From IMG/VR virus record IMGVR_UViG_3300032236_000110, positions 1 to 20,319 of that record: DNA of 20,319 nucleotides; one strand, given 5' to 3'. The notes under the pieces are model-generated. The model was not told the DNA's origin. It saw only the letters and a program-made list of their open reading frames with translations, and did not search any database. How positions within the stretch are numbered: the stretch's first letter is position 1; each line of letters starts with the position of its first letter. Of the stretch, positions 421 through 16,741 are shown one piece after another. This DNA comes from a virus. Position numbers and translations under genes: made by a program.

Positions 421-449
421 AGTATACTATTTATTTTCTAATAGTGCAA
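421..449 (-). promoter_or_regulatory. Predicted sigma70-type promoter before the coiled-coil gene
   Basis: Reading the minus strand, TTGCAC (444-449) and TATACT (421-426) are separated by exactly 17 bases. The -10 hexamer matches the consensus at 5 of 6 positions and the -35 at 3 of 6. The -10 lies just past the tail fibre stop codon, and the next gene starts 25 bases further on with a strong Shine-Dalgarno sequence. The placement at a gene boundary supports it; the weak -35 limits confidence. Confidence 0.45.
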
Positions 450-2394
450 GTCTTTGTTCTAAATCTTCTATTGTTTTTTGTTGATCTTGTATTACCGCCA
501 GCATTGATGCTACAATTCCATCTAGATTATACATGCCAGCTTCACCATCTTCATTTATGCTAGATAGTTCTGGAACTTTTTCAGCAATGTCTTCAACAAT
601 AAATCCAATATTTAACTTATCTTTATTATCTGTATCTAATACAGAATTAAAGGAAACTGGAGAAACATTTAAAATTTTAAACGGATTATAAGATCTTATT
701 TCAGAGACTTTTTCTAGGGGGATTTCTTTAGAAAGTTCTGAATATTTTGATATTGAATTAATATTATTTTTATTTTTAAAATGTGATGTATAAGTATATA
801 TGTATGGTGTTCCAGATTGAAGTATATAAAGTGGGTACTTTGATGCAGTTGTAACAGTTTCATTATATCTTATTGCTGGAGAAGATATATATGCATTATT
901 TGCGGAAGATGTTCCGTATCCCAGCACAATGTTTCCGCCAAATTGATTTATATATAAGGTTGTTCCAACCCTAGTTCCACCACTATAAACTGTAGACTGA
1001 ATTGTATTATTGTCAATAGACATTCTACTTGCAGATGCACCACTAAAATATGGATATGAGTAACTGGTAGTTGAATTGGCGTAAATATTAAAAGTACCCG
1101 TGTCAGACAAGCTATTTACGGTAGCATTGTCTGGTTCTATTGTTATACCACTTTGTGATACTGTGCCATATGTTGTTGTACCTCTAATAAAAATTGTTCC
1201 TTTAGCACCAATATTGGTAGAATAAAGTCCATAAATGTCTGTAAAATATATTCCATTTGGAGCAGTGTTGTAAGGGTCTGGACCTGTAGCAGCAATACCA
1301 ACAGTATAAGGATAGTATGTTGCACTTCCACCAGACAAATCTTGAGATAAAATTGCATTAAAAGTTGTAGTAAAAGTATTGCTAGTTGTTGAAATTACTT
1401 GAAGGTATTGGTTATTATAGCCTGATGTATTAAATCCAGAAATATAAGGGTTATCACCTATATTAAAGCCATGACAAAAAGAGACTACTCTTGATGAACC
1501 TGAAGCTGTTGTTGCAGCACTTAAAGTTACAGATGCACCAGATATATTGGTAATATACGATCCATTAATTCCAGTTCCATATACTTTTTGCCTAATTGAT
1601 AATCCCGCAGAACTACTAACAGTTATTGTAGTTGATCCTGAAGCATATGTTGCTGATGTTGTTGCAATATTTGATACAAATACTGCAGAAAAACCATCTG
1701 TAGCAGTACTAGCAGACAATAAATTAAAAATAAATCCAACTGGATTATATAGCTCTAGATATCCTTCGGAGTCTAACTCTACGCCACTCTTACTAAATGG
1801 TGGGTATTCTATGGTGCTATTATGAAGAAATGATGATATTACTCCATGACCAGTATCACCCTCATAATCGTAGTTTCCAATGTACCAAACATTTGTTGAC
1901 CCCGTTCCAATTTGACCTCCACCTGCATAAATAGTTCCTCTAAAATAAGCATTTCCGTCAAGGGTGTTTAATAAAAAGTTTGCCTGTCCTGCATTCTGTG
2001 ATGCAGAACTAAATTGATATCCAAGAATACCTGTGCTATTTATAATTACTGCTCCAGCACTTGCTGTTCCTGTCAGAGATGAACTTACTACTGGTCCCGC
2101 AGAAGTTGAATTCCAAATACTAGCAAGATTAGTTCTACCAGCATAAATCAATCCGTTTGCATCTAATGCACCTGCAGTTAGTGCTCCACCAACAACACAT
2201 GCAGAATCATTTGCCAATGCTGTAACAACTGTTGTGTTGGTAGATGTTAGCTGTGTGCCATCAAGTTTTGCGGTTGGAGTAGTAAAAGTATATGTAAGAG
2301 ATTTACCAGAACGGTTGCCATCTGAGTCTTTTGCTACCACAGCAACTGTATATGTTTTTCCTGGCTGTAATTTAGTAAGAAGTAATTGACCCAC
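427..2394 (-). CDS. Tail fibre distal part with C-terminal peptidase S74-like chaperone domain
   Basis: This 655-residue protein is the likely receptor-binding part of the tail fibre. Residues 1-45 are the second half of an FN3-like domain (KLQPGKTYTVAVVAKDSDGN), with no first half in this frame. Around 148-161 is a segment of the kind common in fibre shafts (GNAYFRGTIYAGGG). Residues about 250-305 carry a beta-rich module (GSTTITVSSSAGLS), followed by SGFNTSGYNNQYLQVIS. From Ser537 (SHFKNKNNI) to the end is a peptidase S74-type intramolecular chaperone, with NPFKILNVSPVSFNSV, GFIVEDIAEKVPEL, YNLDGIVASMLAVIQ and a final short coiled coil. Known members trimerise the fibre and then cut themselves off just before this serine. 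The start shown is a GTG overlapping the upstream stop (TAGTG) with only a weak GGTGA ribosome site; the real product may be a fusion with the 295-residue protein. Confidence 0.85.
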   Translation of the reverse strand: MGQLLLTKLQPGKTYTVAVVAKDSDGNRSGKSLTYTFTTPTAKLDGTQLTSTNTTVVTALANDSACVVGGALTAGALDANGLIYAGRTNLASIWNSTSAGPVVSSSLTGTASAGAVIINSTGILGYQFSSASQNAGQANFLLNTLDGNAYFRGTIYAGGGQIGTGSTNVWYIGNYDYEGDTGHGVISSFLHNSTIEYPPFSKSGVELDSEGYLELYNPVGFIFNLLSASTATDGFSAVFVSNIATTSATYASGSTTITVSSSAGLSIRQKVYGTGINGSYITNISGASVTLSAATTASGSSRVVSFCHGFNIGDNPYISGFNTSGYNNQYLQVISTTSNTFTTTFNAILSQDLSGGSATYYPYTVGIAATGPDPYNTAPNGIYFTDIYGLYSTNIGAKGTIFIRGTTTYGTVSQSGITIEPDNATVNSLSDTGTFNIYANSTTSYSYPYFSGASASRMSIDNNTIQSTVYSGGTRVGTTLYINQFGGNIVLGYGTSSANNAYISSPAIRYNETVTTASKYPLYILQSGTPYIYTYTSHFKNKNNINSISKYSELSKEIPLEKVSEIRSYNPFKILNVSPVSFNSVLDTDNKDKLNIGFIVEDIAEKVPELSSINEDGEAGMYNLDGIVASMLAVIQDQQKTIEDLEQRLALLENK

Positions 2395-3281
2395 TATGTC
2401 ACCGTCAAATAATATTCAATTTCTGTTGGCTGTCCATATTTTGTTACAAGTAGGGCTGCCGAAGATGATGTTCTACTGACTAAAAGTTCTTCAGGAGTTC
2501 TTGAAGAGCCATCCATTAATTTCATAGAGTCTAAGAAAATTCCACCAGTTATTGTGCTTGTACTAGCACTAATAGTTTCAACATAATAATTGAATGATGC
2601 ACTTGGCTGATTTGTAATCAAAGTTGACGCAGTAAAGTATCCACTGGCACCTGGGTTTAATGTAATTGTGGGAAGTGTCCAAGCATACCCAGAGTTATCT
2701 ATAAAACTAAATACAACTGATGCATTAGGGCTAGTTCCACTAGCATAATAAAGTATTTGTAAATAGTCATTTGCATTATAATCAGTTAGGTCGTAGCCAT
2801 AACCAGTTCTAGAATGAACACTAGATGAGTTTAAAGAAATATTGTAAGCTCCCAGCCTTGAGCCAGGGTAAAGAGTTTTATTAACACTTGCTGTAGAAAG
2901 CGATGAGCCAGATACCCAATCACTAGATCCAGATGTTCCAAATGTTTCTGAAAAATCGGTAAGAAAAAAATTGTCTTTTGTATTAGCCTGAAAACTATTT
3001 TGTGGAATAATTCCAACTTCATAAATAGAGCCTACTAAAAGTGGATCTAAACTGGCTTTAACTACAATCTGATTTGAGCCACTTGTTGCACCATTTACAT
3101 ATGTTCCAGATGGAGAGTATACTTTCAGTGTTATGGGGGAACGACTAATTTCATATGCAAGTTTAGTGTCTGTAGATGCTGATTGTGTGTATAGGGCACC
3201 AACTACTATTGTTCCCGCCCAATCCTGAACACCTTGTGCCAAAAATCTATTAATCATATCAATTCCATTTGTAGTTATCAT
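2394..3281 (-). CDS. Tail fibre proximal part, probable baseplate-attachment protein
   Basis: This is a 295-residue protein. Residues 1-30 (MITTNGIDMINRFLAQG, then TIVVGALYTQSAS) resemble the N-terminal attachment domain of phage tail fibre proteins, which usually begin MITT.G...I and continue with an IAVG-like strand and a T/D-rich loop. Residues about 95-250 look like a beta-sandwich, carbohydrate-binding-like module with many S, G, Y and N residues. Residues about 262-295 (LVSRTSSSAALLVTKYGQP, then TEIEYYLTVT) match the first strands of an FN3-like domain that stops abruptly. The matching second half opens the next gene in the -1 frame. The start ATG overlaps the upstream stop as ATGA, with AGGAG ten bases upstream. 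I read this and the next gene as two pieces of one fibre. Confidence 0.75.
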   Translation of the reverse strand: MITTNGIDMINRFLAQGVQDWAGTIVVGALYTQSASTDTKLAYEISRSPITLKVYSPSGTYVNGATSGSNQIVVKASLDPLLVGSIYEVGIIPQNSFQANTKDNFFLTDFSETFGTSGSSDWVSGSSLSTASVNKTLYPGSRLGAYNISLNSSSVHSRTGYGYDLTDYNANDYLQILYYASGTSPNASVVFSFIDNSGYAWTLPTITLNPGASGYFTASTLITNQPSASFNYYVETISASTSTITGGIFLDSMKLMDGSSRTPEELLVSRTSSSAALLVTKYGQPTEIEYYLTVT

Positions 3282-3751
3282 ATAGTACTTGCTCCTAAAA
3301 CAAATTCGTAGTCTTCTGCACCCTCAACATCATCAAAGTGGAGATAAGCAGTCCATCTAACAACACCATCAGAATTGGCACTATTGTTTTCTAAAGTATA
3401 ACTACTTGGGTCAACATATAAATTTGTTGGTGCAGATAGGGCATAGTCTGTAGATGGTTCCTCCATTGTTTCTTCAGGAGTAACAATAACTGGGTCGGAG
3501 TCTAATTCATACCACTGATCTGGATCTTGATCTTCATTCCAAAAATCTTCGGCAACATCCTGCTCTTGGACATTATCTAATTCTGTTTCACTTGTAACTT
3601 TGTAGGTATTTGGAGACTGCTCCATACGAAGTCTTGAGTTTCTTGGGTCATCTGAGGATATTTTGATTGTTTGCCCAAAATGGGGAATAGATGCTGGGCT
3701 AGTATATTTATGAGCCTTTGTATTCTTTTTCTTACTATGATTTTTTGCCAT
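3278..3751 (-). CDS. Hypothetical virion protein with basic N-terminus and FN3-like C-terminus
   Basis: This 157-residue protein starts at an ATG with GGAGG four bases upstream. The first 15 residues are very basic (MAKNHSKKKNTKAHK). Residues about 55-105 are acidic and likely disordered (for example EDFWNEDQDPDQWYELD). Residues about 108-157 resemble the first strands of an FN3 or Ig-like domain: SAPTNLYV, then VVRWTAYLHFDDVEGAEDY and EFVLGAST. The protein ends there, so either this is a short complete sandwich or only part of one. It sits between the hub and fibre genes and overlaps the fibre gene by four bases (ATGA), which suggests a minor tail or adaptor protein. The charge split is unusual, and no precise function can be given. 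Confidence 0.7.
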   Translation of the reverse strand: MAKNHSKKKNTKAHKYTSPASIPHFGQTIKISSDDPRNSRLRMEQSPNTYKVTSETELDNVQEQDVAEDFWNEDQDPDQWYELDSDPVIVTPEETMEEPSTDYALSAPTNLYVDPSSYTLENNSANSDGVVRWTAYLHFDDVEGAEDYEFVLGASTI

Positions 3752-16118: not shown

Positions 16119-16741
16119 CTATGATTGCACCTCATATCCCAGACCCACTCCGATACCAAAGCCCTCTTTTTGAGCTTTCCATCCATTAAGATCCTTAATG
16201 TCATTTGTATCTTGTGGATCAGTTTTTGTTTTTTCTTGCAAATCAATTCCTTGAATTGCAGCGTGAAACCTATTGTTACGATCTTCTTTTTCATAAACTG
16301 CTGCCACAGTTGCAAGCAACTCTTCGACAGATAGTGATGATTCAAGTTCGTCATAGTTTTTCCAACGACCAAGCAGAAATACTTCTGCTTCTAACTTGGC
16401 AAGATCTAGCTCATCCCAACTAGACTTGCCGCTCCCAGGTTTGGGTCGTTAAGTTTCAATCCTCCAGCCACTTCAAGAATCTTCATCATGGTTGGTACCT
16501 CGATAGACTCTTCAAATTTTTCTTTATCTTCTGATAGTTCTGGATATAGTTGCTCTAGGCAGACCATTGCTGCTTCGATGAAGATTTCCATAACTTGGTC
16601 TTCTTCTGTAATTTCTGGATCATCAATCTTTTTAATTACTGCTAAAAATTTCTTTAGATGCTTGATTGATAATGGCTTGATTGTTAGTGTGTCACCATTT
16701 GATAGCTGAATTTCTTCTACGCTGTATACTGTTGTTGGCAA
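16119..16741 (-). CDS. Tail assembly chaperone, -1 frameshift fusion product
   Basis: A predicted programmed -1 frameshift joins the 111-residue chaperone frame to a second frame, giving a 207-residue protein: 101 codons from 16741 to 16439, then 106 from 16439 to the TAG at 16119-16121. In other long-tailed phages (lambda G/GT is the model) the short and extended forms coat the tape measure during tail assembly. The extension reads PGSGKSSWDELDLAKLEAEV, then FLLGRWKNYDELE, AVYEKEDRNNRFHAAIQGID and ends GLGYEVQS. The LDLAKLEAEVFLLG stretch is a familiar second-frame chaperone motif. No good independent start exists in this frame before that motif, which supports frameshifting. It lies directly upstream of the tape measure gene. 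Confidence 0.88.
16398..16445 (-). promoter_or_regulatory. Programmed -1 ribosomal frameshift signal (CCCAAAC plus stem-loop)
   Basis: On the mRNA strand the canonical heptamer C CCA AAC lies in frame at 16445-16439. After an eight-base spacer (16438-16431) a hairpin forms. Its 5' arm GGCAAGTCTAG (16430-16420) pairs with 3' arm CTAGATCTTGCC (16409-16398), giving 11 base pairs with one bulged T at 16404 and a ten-base loop. The 0-frame TAG stop (16406-16408) is inside the 3' arm. Heptamer, spacing and stem all fit the X XXY YYZ frameshift model. Confidence 0.9.
16406..16741 (-). CDS. Tail assembly chaperone, short (0-frame) form
   Basis: This 111-residue protein is the unshifted product of the chaperone gene. 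It starts at TTG (16739-16741), chosen because a perfect AAGGAGG (16747-16753) sits five bases upstream and no ATG or GTG is better placed. The protein reads MPTTVYSVEEIQLSNGDTLT, then IKPLSIKHLKKFLAVIKKID and has an acidic, helical middle (EFIEAAMVCLEQLYPELSED is the style). It is the size usual for lambda gpG-like proteins. Ten residues follow the slip site before the TAG at 16406. It has its own promoter-like sequence upstream and lies between the major tail and tape measure genes, the standard position. Confidence 0.9.
   Translation of the reverse strand: MPTTVYSVEEIQLSNGDTLTIKPLSIKHLKKFLAVIKKIDDPEITEEDQVMEIFIEAAMVCLEQLYPELSEDKEKFEESIEVPTMMKILEVAGGLKLNDPNLGAASLVGMS

Follow-up and report, generated by a model that had tools for sequence, protein, structure and literature searches.

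The fibre built from gp34-gp37 of phage T4 and the lateral fibres of the T5-like phage DT57C each consist of several consecutive gene products. To our knowledge, there is no case among fibres of this type in which one fibronectin type III (FN3) domain is divided between chains. Completion of an immunoglobulin-like fold by another chain is familiar from donor-strand complementation in pili and from artificially split FN3 domains. In mycobacteriophage Mysterious, gp35, gp36 and gp37 are consecutive baseplate accessory proteins that assemble together and for which an N-terminal hairpin arm and beta-sandwiches are described (PMC13252515).

The window, i.e. the whole stretch of DNA analysed here, is an IMG/VR virus record of 20,319 bases whose tail genes lie on the minus strand. 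Its list of open reading frames gives the order tape measure, a 168-aa gene, a 1528-aa hub identified as a minor tail protein by its match to phrog_10359, and then three genes termed g0, A and B. The 157-aa tail gene g0 (3278..3751, minus strand) combines a low-complexity N-terminal part of basic and acidic character with a beta-rich C-terminal half-domain, and both its position and its C-terminal pattern recur in most relatives. Gene A (2394..3281, minus strand) encodes a 295-aa minor tail protein with an attachment-type domain and an insert resembling a carbohydrate-binding module, and ends in PTEIEYYLTVT followed by the stop codon. Gene B (427..2394, minus strand), defined by its open reading frame and its relatives, starts with GTG and encodes a 655-aa fibre with a half-FN3 N-terminus, which opens with GQLLLTKLQPGKTYTVAVVAKDSDGN and runs on to TYTFTTP, and an S74-like C-terminus. 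The favoured reading, to which a probability of roughly 60% is assigned, is that g0, A and B form a three-gene tail module after the hub, whose products are separate chains that complete one FN3 domain in trans.

The boundary between A and B in relatives

A hub-based scan yielded 78 loci and, together with earlier matches, 55 distinct loci with a full A gene, which comprise the window, other IMG/VR contigs and sequenced Streptomyces phages, many of them closely related to each other. Where no match to A was obtained, the contig breaks off ahead of this region or inside it, except for one copy of the window in opposite orientation; a scan of genome contigs for hub relatives returned none. The end point of A is equivalent in 55 of 55 loci and B is always a separate gene that begins with half an FN3 domain (strands E-F-G), no fused A-B relative being found among them. 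In each of the first four relatives of B (4/4), a separate A ends in IEYYLTVT and B starts at once, and three separate genes are annotated here in the GenBank records of the Streptomyces phages Moab and Bmoc (Stanwilliamsviridae).

In the window, the stop codon of A and the start codon of B share one base as TAGTG (2392..2396, minus strand) and B lies in the -1 frame, in agreement with the first-pass annotation. Across the relatives, B always starts within 8 nt of the A stop (55/55), at an offset of -4 in 23 loci, -1 in 19, +1 in 7, -8 in two, 0 in one and +3 in one, and in the remaining two loci (L026 and L027) the B start overlaps the A stop as well. Relative to A, all three frames of B are thus represented; because the offsets span them all, one conserved frameshift or indel is excluded, and what is conserved at the junction is a stop followed by an immediate start.

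These observations bear on two accidental or exceptional origins of the frame change that had been suggested, a recent one-base indel and an unusual recoding site. Nothing beyond the frame change itself speaks for an indel or a sequencing error, and the same boundary occurs in many unrelated assemblies as well as in isolated, annotated phages, so that this explanation deserves practically no credence. A comparison of homologues had been designated beforehand as the refutation of an accidental split, and the relatives do share the two genes and the split point; the varying frame of B and the separate GenBank genes dispose of the recoding site in the same way. A related proposal, that programmed frameshifting joins A and B in some of the chains, could draw on the -1 frame of B in the window and most relatives and on the typical -1 heptamer, CCCAAAC, in the tail chaperone genes of the window. 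It is nevertheless very improbable, as B lies at +1, 0 or +3 in other relatives, a conserved start codon and ribosome site precede B, and the window has no in-phase XXXYYYZ heptamer within 250 nt of the A stop, which bears out the earlier remark that no canonical slippery heptamer is visible at the junction. The features expected of programmed -1 frameshifting, an in-phase heptamer and a constant frame relation, are therefore both missing here. The comparisons indicate that the split is real and old and constitutes a stable gene boundary. A and B are almost certainly made as separate chains, a conclusion that the comparison of relatives supports well.

Elsewhere in the window, a likely tail assembly chaperone pair is located upstream of the tape measure gene (16741-16119), its second part being in the -1 frame (SSWDELDLAKLEAEVFLLG...). 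The CCCAAAC at 16445 is in phase in the G-like tail chaperone gene and is the probable true frameshift site of the window.

Probable translation restart ahead of B

The first-pass annotation had judged the ribosome site before the GTG to be weak, which would make stop-restart translation less comfortable. This view is contradicted by a conserved Shine-Dalgarno-like GGTGA (2399..2403, minus strand), which is embedded in the final codons of A and precedes the GTG start of B by 4 nt. Among 20 low-GC members whose A ends in TVT, QVT or a similar form, the valine codon near the end of A is GTG in 19 cases, compared with 49 of 760 valine codons in the A genes (binomial P about 4e-22 if independence is assumed; the loci are related and the true figure is weaker, although synonymous positions nearby do vary). 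It is because this rare codon helps to build GGTG(A) in 19 of the 20 relatives that the classification of the site as weak is wrong. The preceding threonine, where present in the low-GC group, is encoded by ACG. GGTGA, AGGTGA or GGTG lies 4-8 nt upstream of most low-GC B starts and 1 nt upstream in L037. Streptomyces-type members have ATGA overlaps, and ribosome-site sequence is absent or weak in them.

With overlapping or adjacent genes and a ribosome site present, the A/B junction fits stop-restart, i.e. coupled, translation. Ribosomes would finish A and restart on B, assisted by the Shine-Dalgarno-like site in the last codons of A, and g0, A and B may all be translated through successive stop-restarts. 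In a distant group (L062, L063, L075, L076, L081 and L096), the A/B boundary is equivalent, a different-looking gene occupies the position of g0, and AGGAG precedes the B start in most members.

Half of an FN3 domain at the start of B

Residues 2-40 of B (2275..2391, minus strand) carry the E-F-G pattern of fibronectin type III, L.PG..Y..rv.a, and align in hhalign, with a P of 1.5e-9, to strands E-F-G of the complete FN3 domains of related B proteins. In addition, joined sequences match Pfam fn3 (11/11) or Pur_ac_phosph_N, with the match located in B, and the earlier statement that B opens with strands of an FN3-like domain is upheld by both results. Neither half, when used by itself in profile searches against PDB and Pfam, returned an FN3. 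This FN3 domain is not whole within one chain; in the relatives where B was found, B begins at about strand E. At its other end, B of the window scores 16.1 bits against Pfam S74 (PF13884) and that of the relative L001 scores 18.6, both under the cut-off of 22. The S74 end that had been assigned to the fibre is thus retained as a plausible Peptidase S74 chaperone end with a score below the Pfam threshold.

Two relatives reduce B almost to the half-domain. In L026 (14957-15148) and L027 (15245-15439), B is only 63-64 aa long and contains little besides the E-F-G half, a different 144-aa gene follows it, and gene A encodes 661 aa. Since this short B is little but half a domain, it would need to be completed by something else. 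One candidate is B itself: no other gene would complete the half-FN3, and strands would be exchanged or shared among three B chains in the head of a trimeric fibre. Fibres with an S74 end are trimers, a half-domain could have been adapted to a homotrimeric state, and the 63-aa version of L026 and L027 could oligomerise as well. A homotrimer would, however, leave the complementary-looking end of g0, which is kept in most relatives, without explanation, and this arrangement is considered unlikely.

Gene A as a probably self-contained protein

Another candidate is gene A, whose end had been taken to supply the first strands of the FN3 domain. Residues 1-294 of the 295 of A align with positions 1-271 of the 273-position profile of the tail protein phrog_9983 (E 3e-19), and the end of the profile coincides with the end of A. 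In L017, A and B lie in one frame, and the sequence was folded through the A stop with AlphaFold2 to test A as a partner; this model and the L024 model described below were judged by pLDDT and secondary structure. In the L017 model, pLDDT is 90-97 for the final hairpin of A (LVSRTSSSAALLVTKYGQPTEIEYYLTVT; 2397..2483 in the window, minus strand), which lies within A itself, and about 80 for the B half, and the E strand of B is not formed. Foldseek identified stand-alone proteins of 265-300 aa that share the predicted A fold (TM by target 0.78-0.84), and CBM22 and CBM16 modules are among the PDB matches of the L017 A model. Profile searches of PDB and Pfam detected no FN3 signal in the A C-terminus, and in an hhalign comparison with FN3 strands A-B-C the end of A scored 9.3 against a background mean of 8.7.

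On account of the confidently predicted hairpin, the Foldseek proteins of similar length and the end point of phrog_9983, gene A very probably encodes a protein that is complete without B, and its last strands are probably not FN3 strands. The idea that they complete the domain together with the first strands of B, as two chains, is attractive insofar as the tail of A directly precedes B in gene order, PTEIEYYLTV joined to LLLTKLQPGKTYTV looks like an FN3, and A and B scored as fn3 in all 11 members when joined. Against this, the fn3 score of the joined sequences derives almost wholly from B, the tail of A lacks an FN3 signal and belongs to the confident fold of A itself, which stand-alone A-like proteins share, and the E strand of B remains unpaired even in the fused model. 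A pairing of A with B is accordingly regarded as quite unlikely. Of the original suggestion that two chains complete a domain in trans, the two chains stand; the partner does not appear to be A, which seems complete alone, and more likely resides on g0.

As a separate observation, A of the window lacks at its start (3281-3230) an N-terminal hairpin of about 20 residues (GKYVFKSNGEIIAEKEN) that is present in most relatives. As the Samistivirus-type Streptomyces phages L013 and L059 lack one too, this hairpin seems to be dispensable or to have been lost more than once.

g0 as the probable partner of B

The C-terminal 53 residues of g0 (3281..3439, minus strand; LSAPTNLYVDPSSY...GVVRWTAYLHFDDVEGAEDYEFVLGAS) follow a consensus of 22 relatives, L..P.NL.I...DG...W.A.L.FDDV.GA..YEY, that corresponds in its pattern to strands A-B-C of an FN3. 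In an hhalign comparison with FN3 A-B-C, this C-terminus obtained a modest score of 12.9 (P 0.02; strands B-C aligned), and the two of 86 background windows that exceeded it both lie in a part of the hub that resembles FN3. This part (roughly residues 160-240 of the hub, 8366-3780) has the top background score against FN3 A-B-C and is missing from the Streptomyces homologues. Searches with single profiles of the g0 C-terminus gave no FN3 match, and an HMM of joined halves, compared with complete FN3 domains, scored arbitrary stretches of A as well as g0. When g0 and A of L024 were modelled together, the strands of the g0 half were ordered A-B-C at a pLDDT of 47-62, a range low enough that A does not seem to complete the g0 half. 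A query of joined g0 and B, used to search for a natural fusion of the two, had matches only in Streptomyces phages (127 records), mostly as two separate places, and no locus reads g0 and B as one chain.

Since the predicted fold of A seems complete in the absence of B, g0 is favoured over A as the partner, and a single FN3 domain formed in trans is more likely to consist of g0 and B than of A and B. The A-B-C-like half at the end of g0 thus probably completes the half-FN3 of B, a role that we infer, the other sequence tests being negative or undiscriminating and the different-looking gene at the g0 position in the distant group of L062 speaking against it. A variant with three contributing products, in which g0 would supply strands A-B-C, the end of A one strand and B strands E-F-G of the same FN3, is improbable; if true, it would represent an assembly lock that forces equal numbers of three tail proteins. 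For the favoured pairing of g0 with B, it is proposed that the N-terminal part of g0, mostly of low complexity, presumably binds the tail tip. The half-domain of g0 would then snap onto that of B, forming one FN3 joint that links the fibre to the tail tip, and A would be a separate minor tail protein held beside this joint.

Comparison with known systems

Fibres of several chains and overlapping genes are ordinary in phages. FN3 halves that reside on different chains, with a whole gene between them, and that are kept over a wide family are undescribed in the open-access literature searched, the coverage of which is incomplete and in which no description of a split FN3 in phage tails was found. 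If the favoured reading is true, the locus would encode a natural split domain that serves as a strong non-covalent joint and is conserved over a large phage family, including many Streptomyces phages. It would also explain why "hypothetical" and "minor tail" genes look incomplete when viewed singly, caution against annotating such splits as errors, and supply protein engineering with a natural pair of FN3 halves that is ready for use.

The same split and half-FN3 are seen in Stanwilliamsviridae (Moab genes 42/43/44, Bmoc 60/61/62), where a small g0-like gene, an A-like minor tail gene and a large B come after the hub. These phages differ from the window in that their B has about 2000 aa and contains further complete FN3 domains, and in that their starts and stops overlap as ATGA and little sequence resembling a ribosome site is present. 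By description, gp35, gp36 and gp37 of Mysterious resemble g0, A and B as three consecutive proteins that assemble together, and fibronectin or FN3 domains are unmentioned in that report (PMC13252515). In comparison with donor-strand complementation in pili, where one strand is given, about half a domain would be contributed here, and this within a phage tail.
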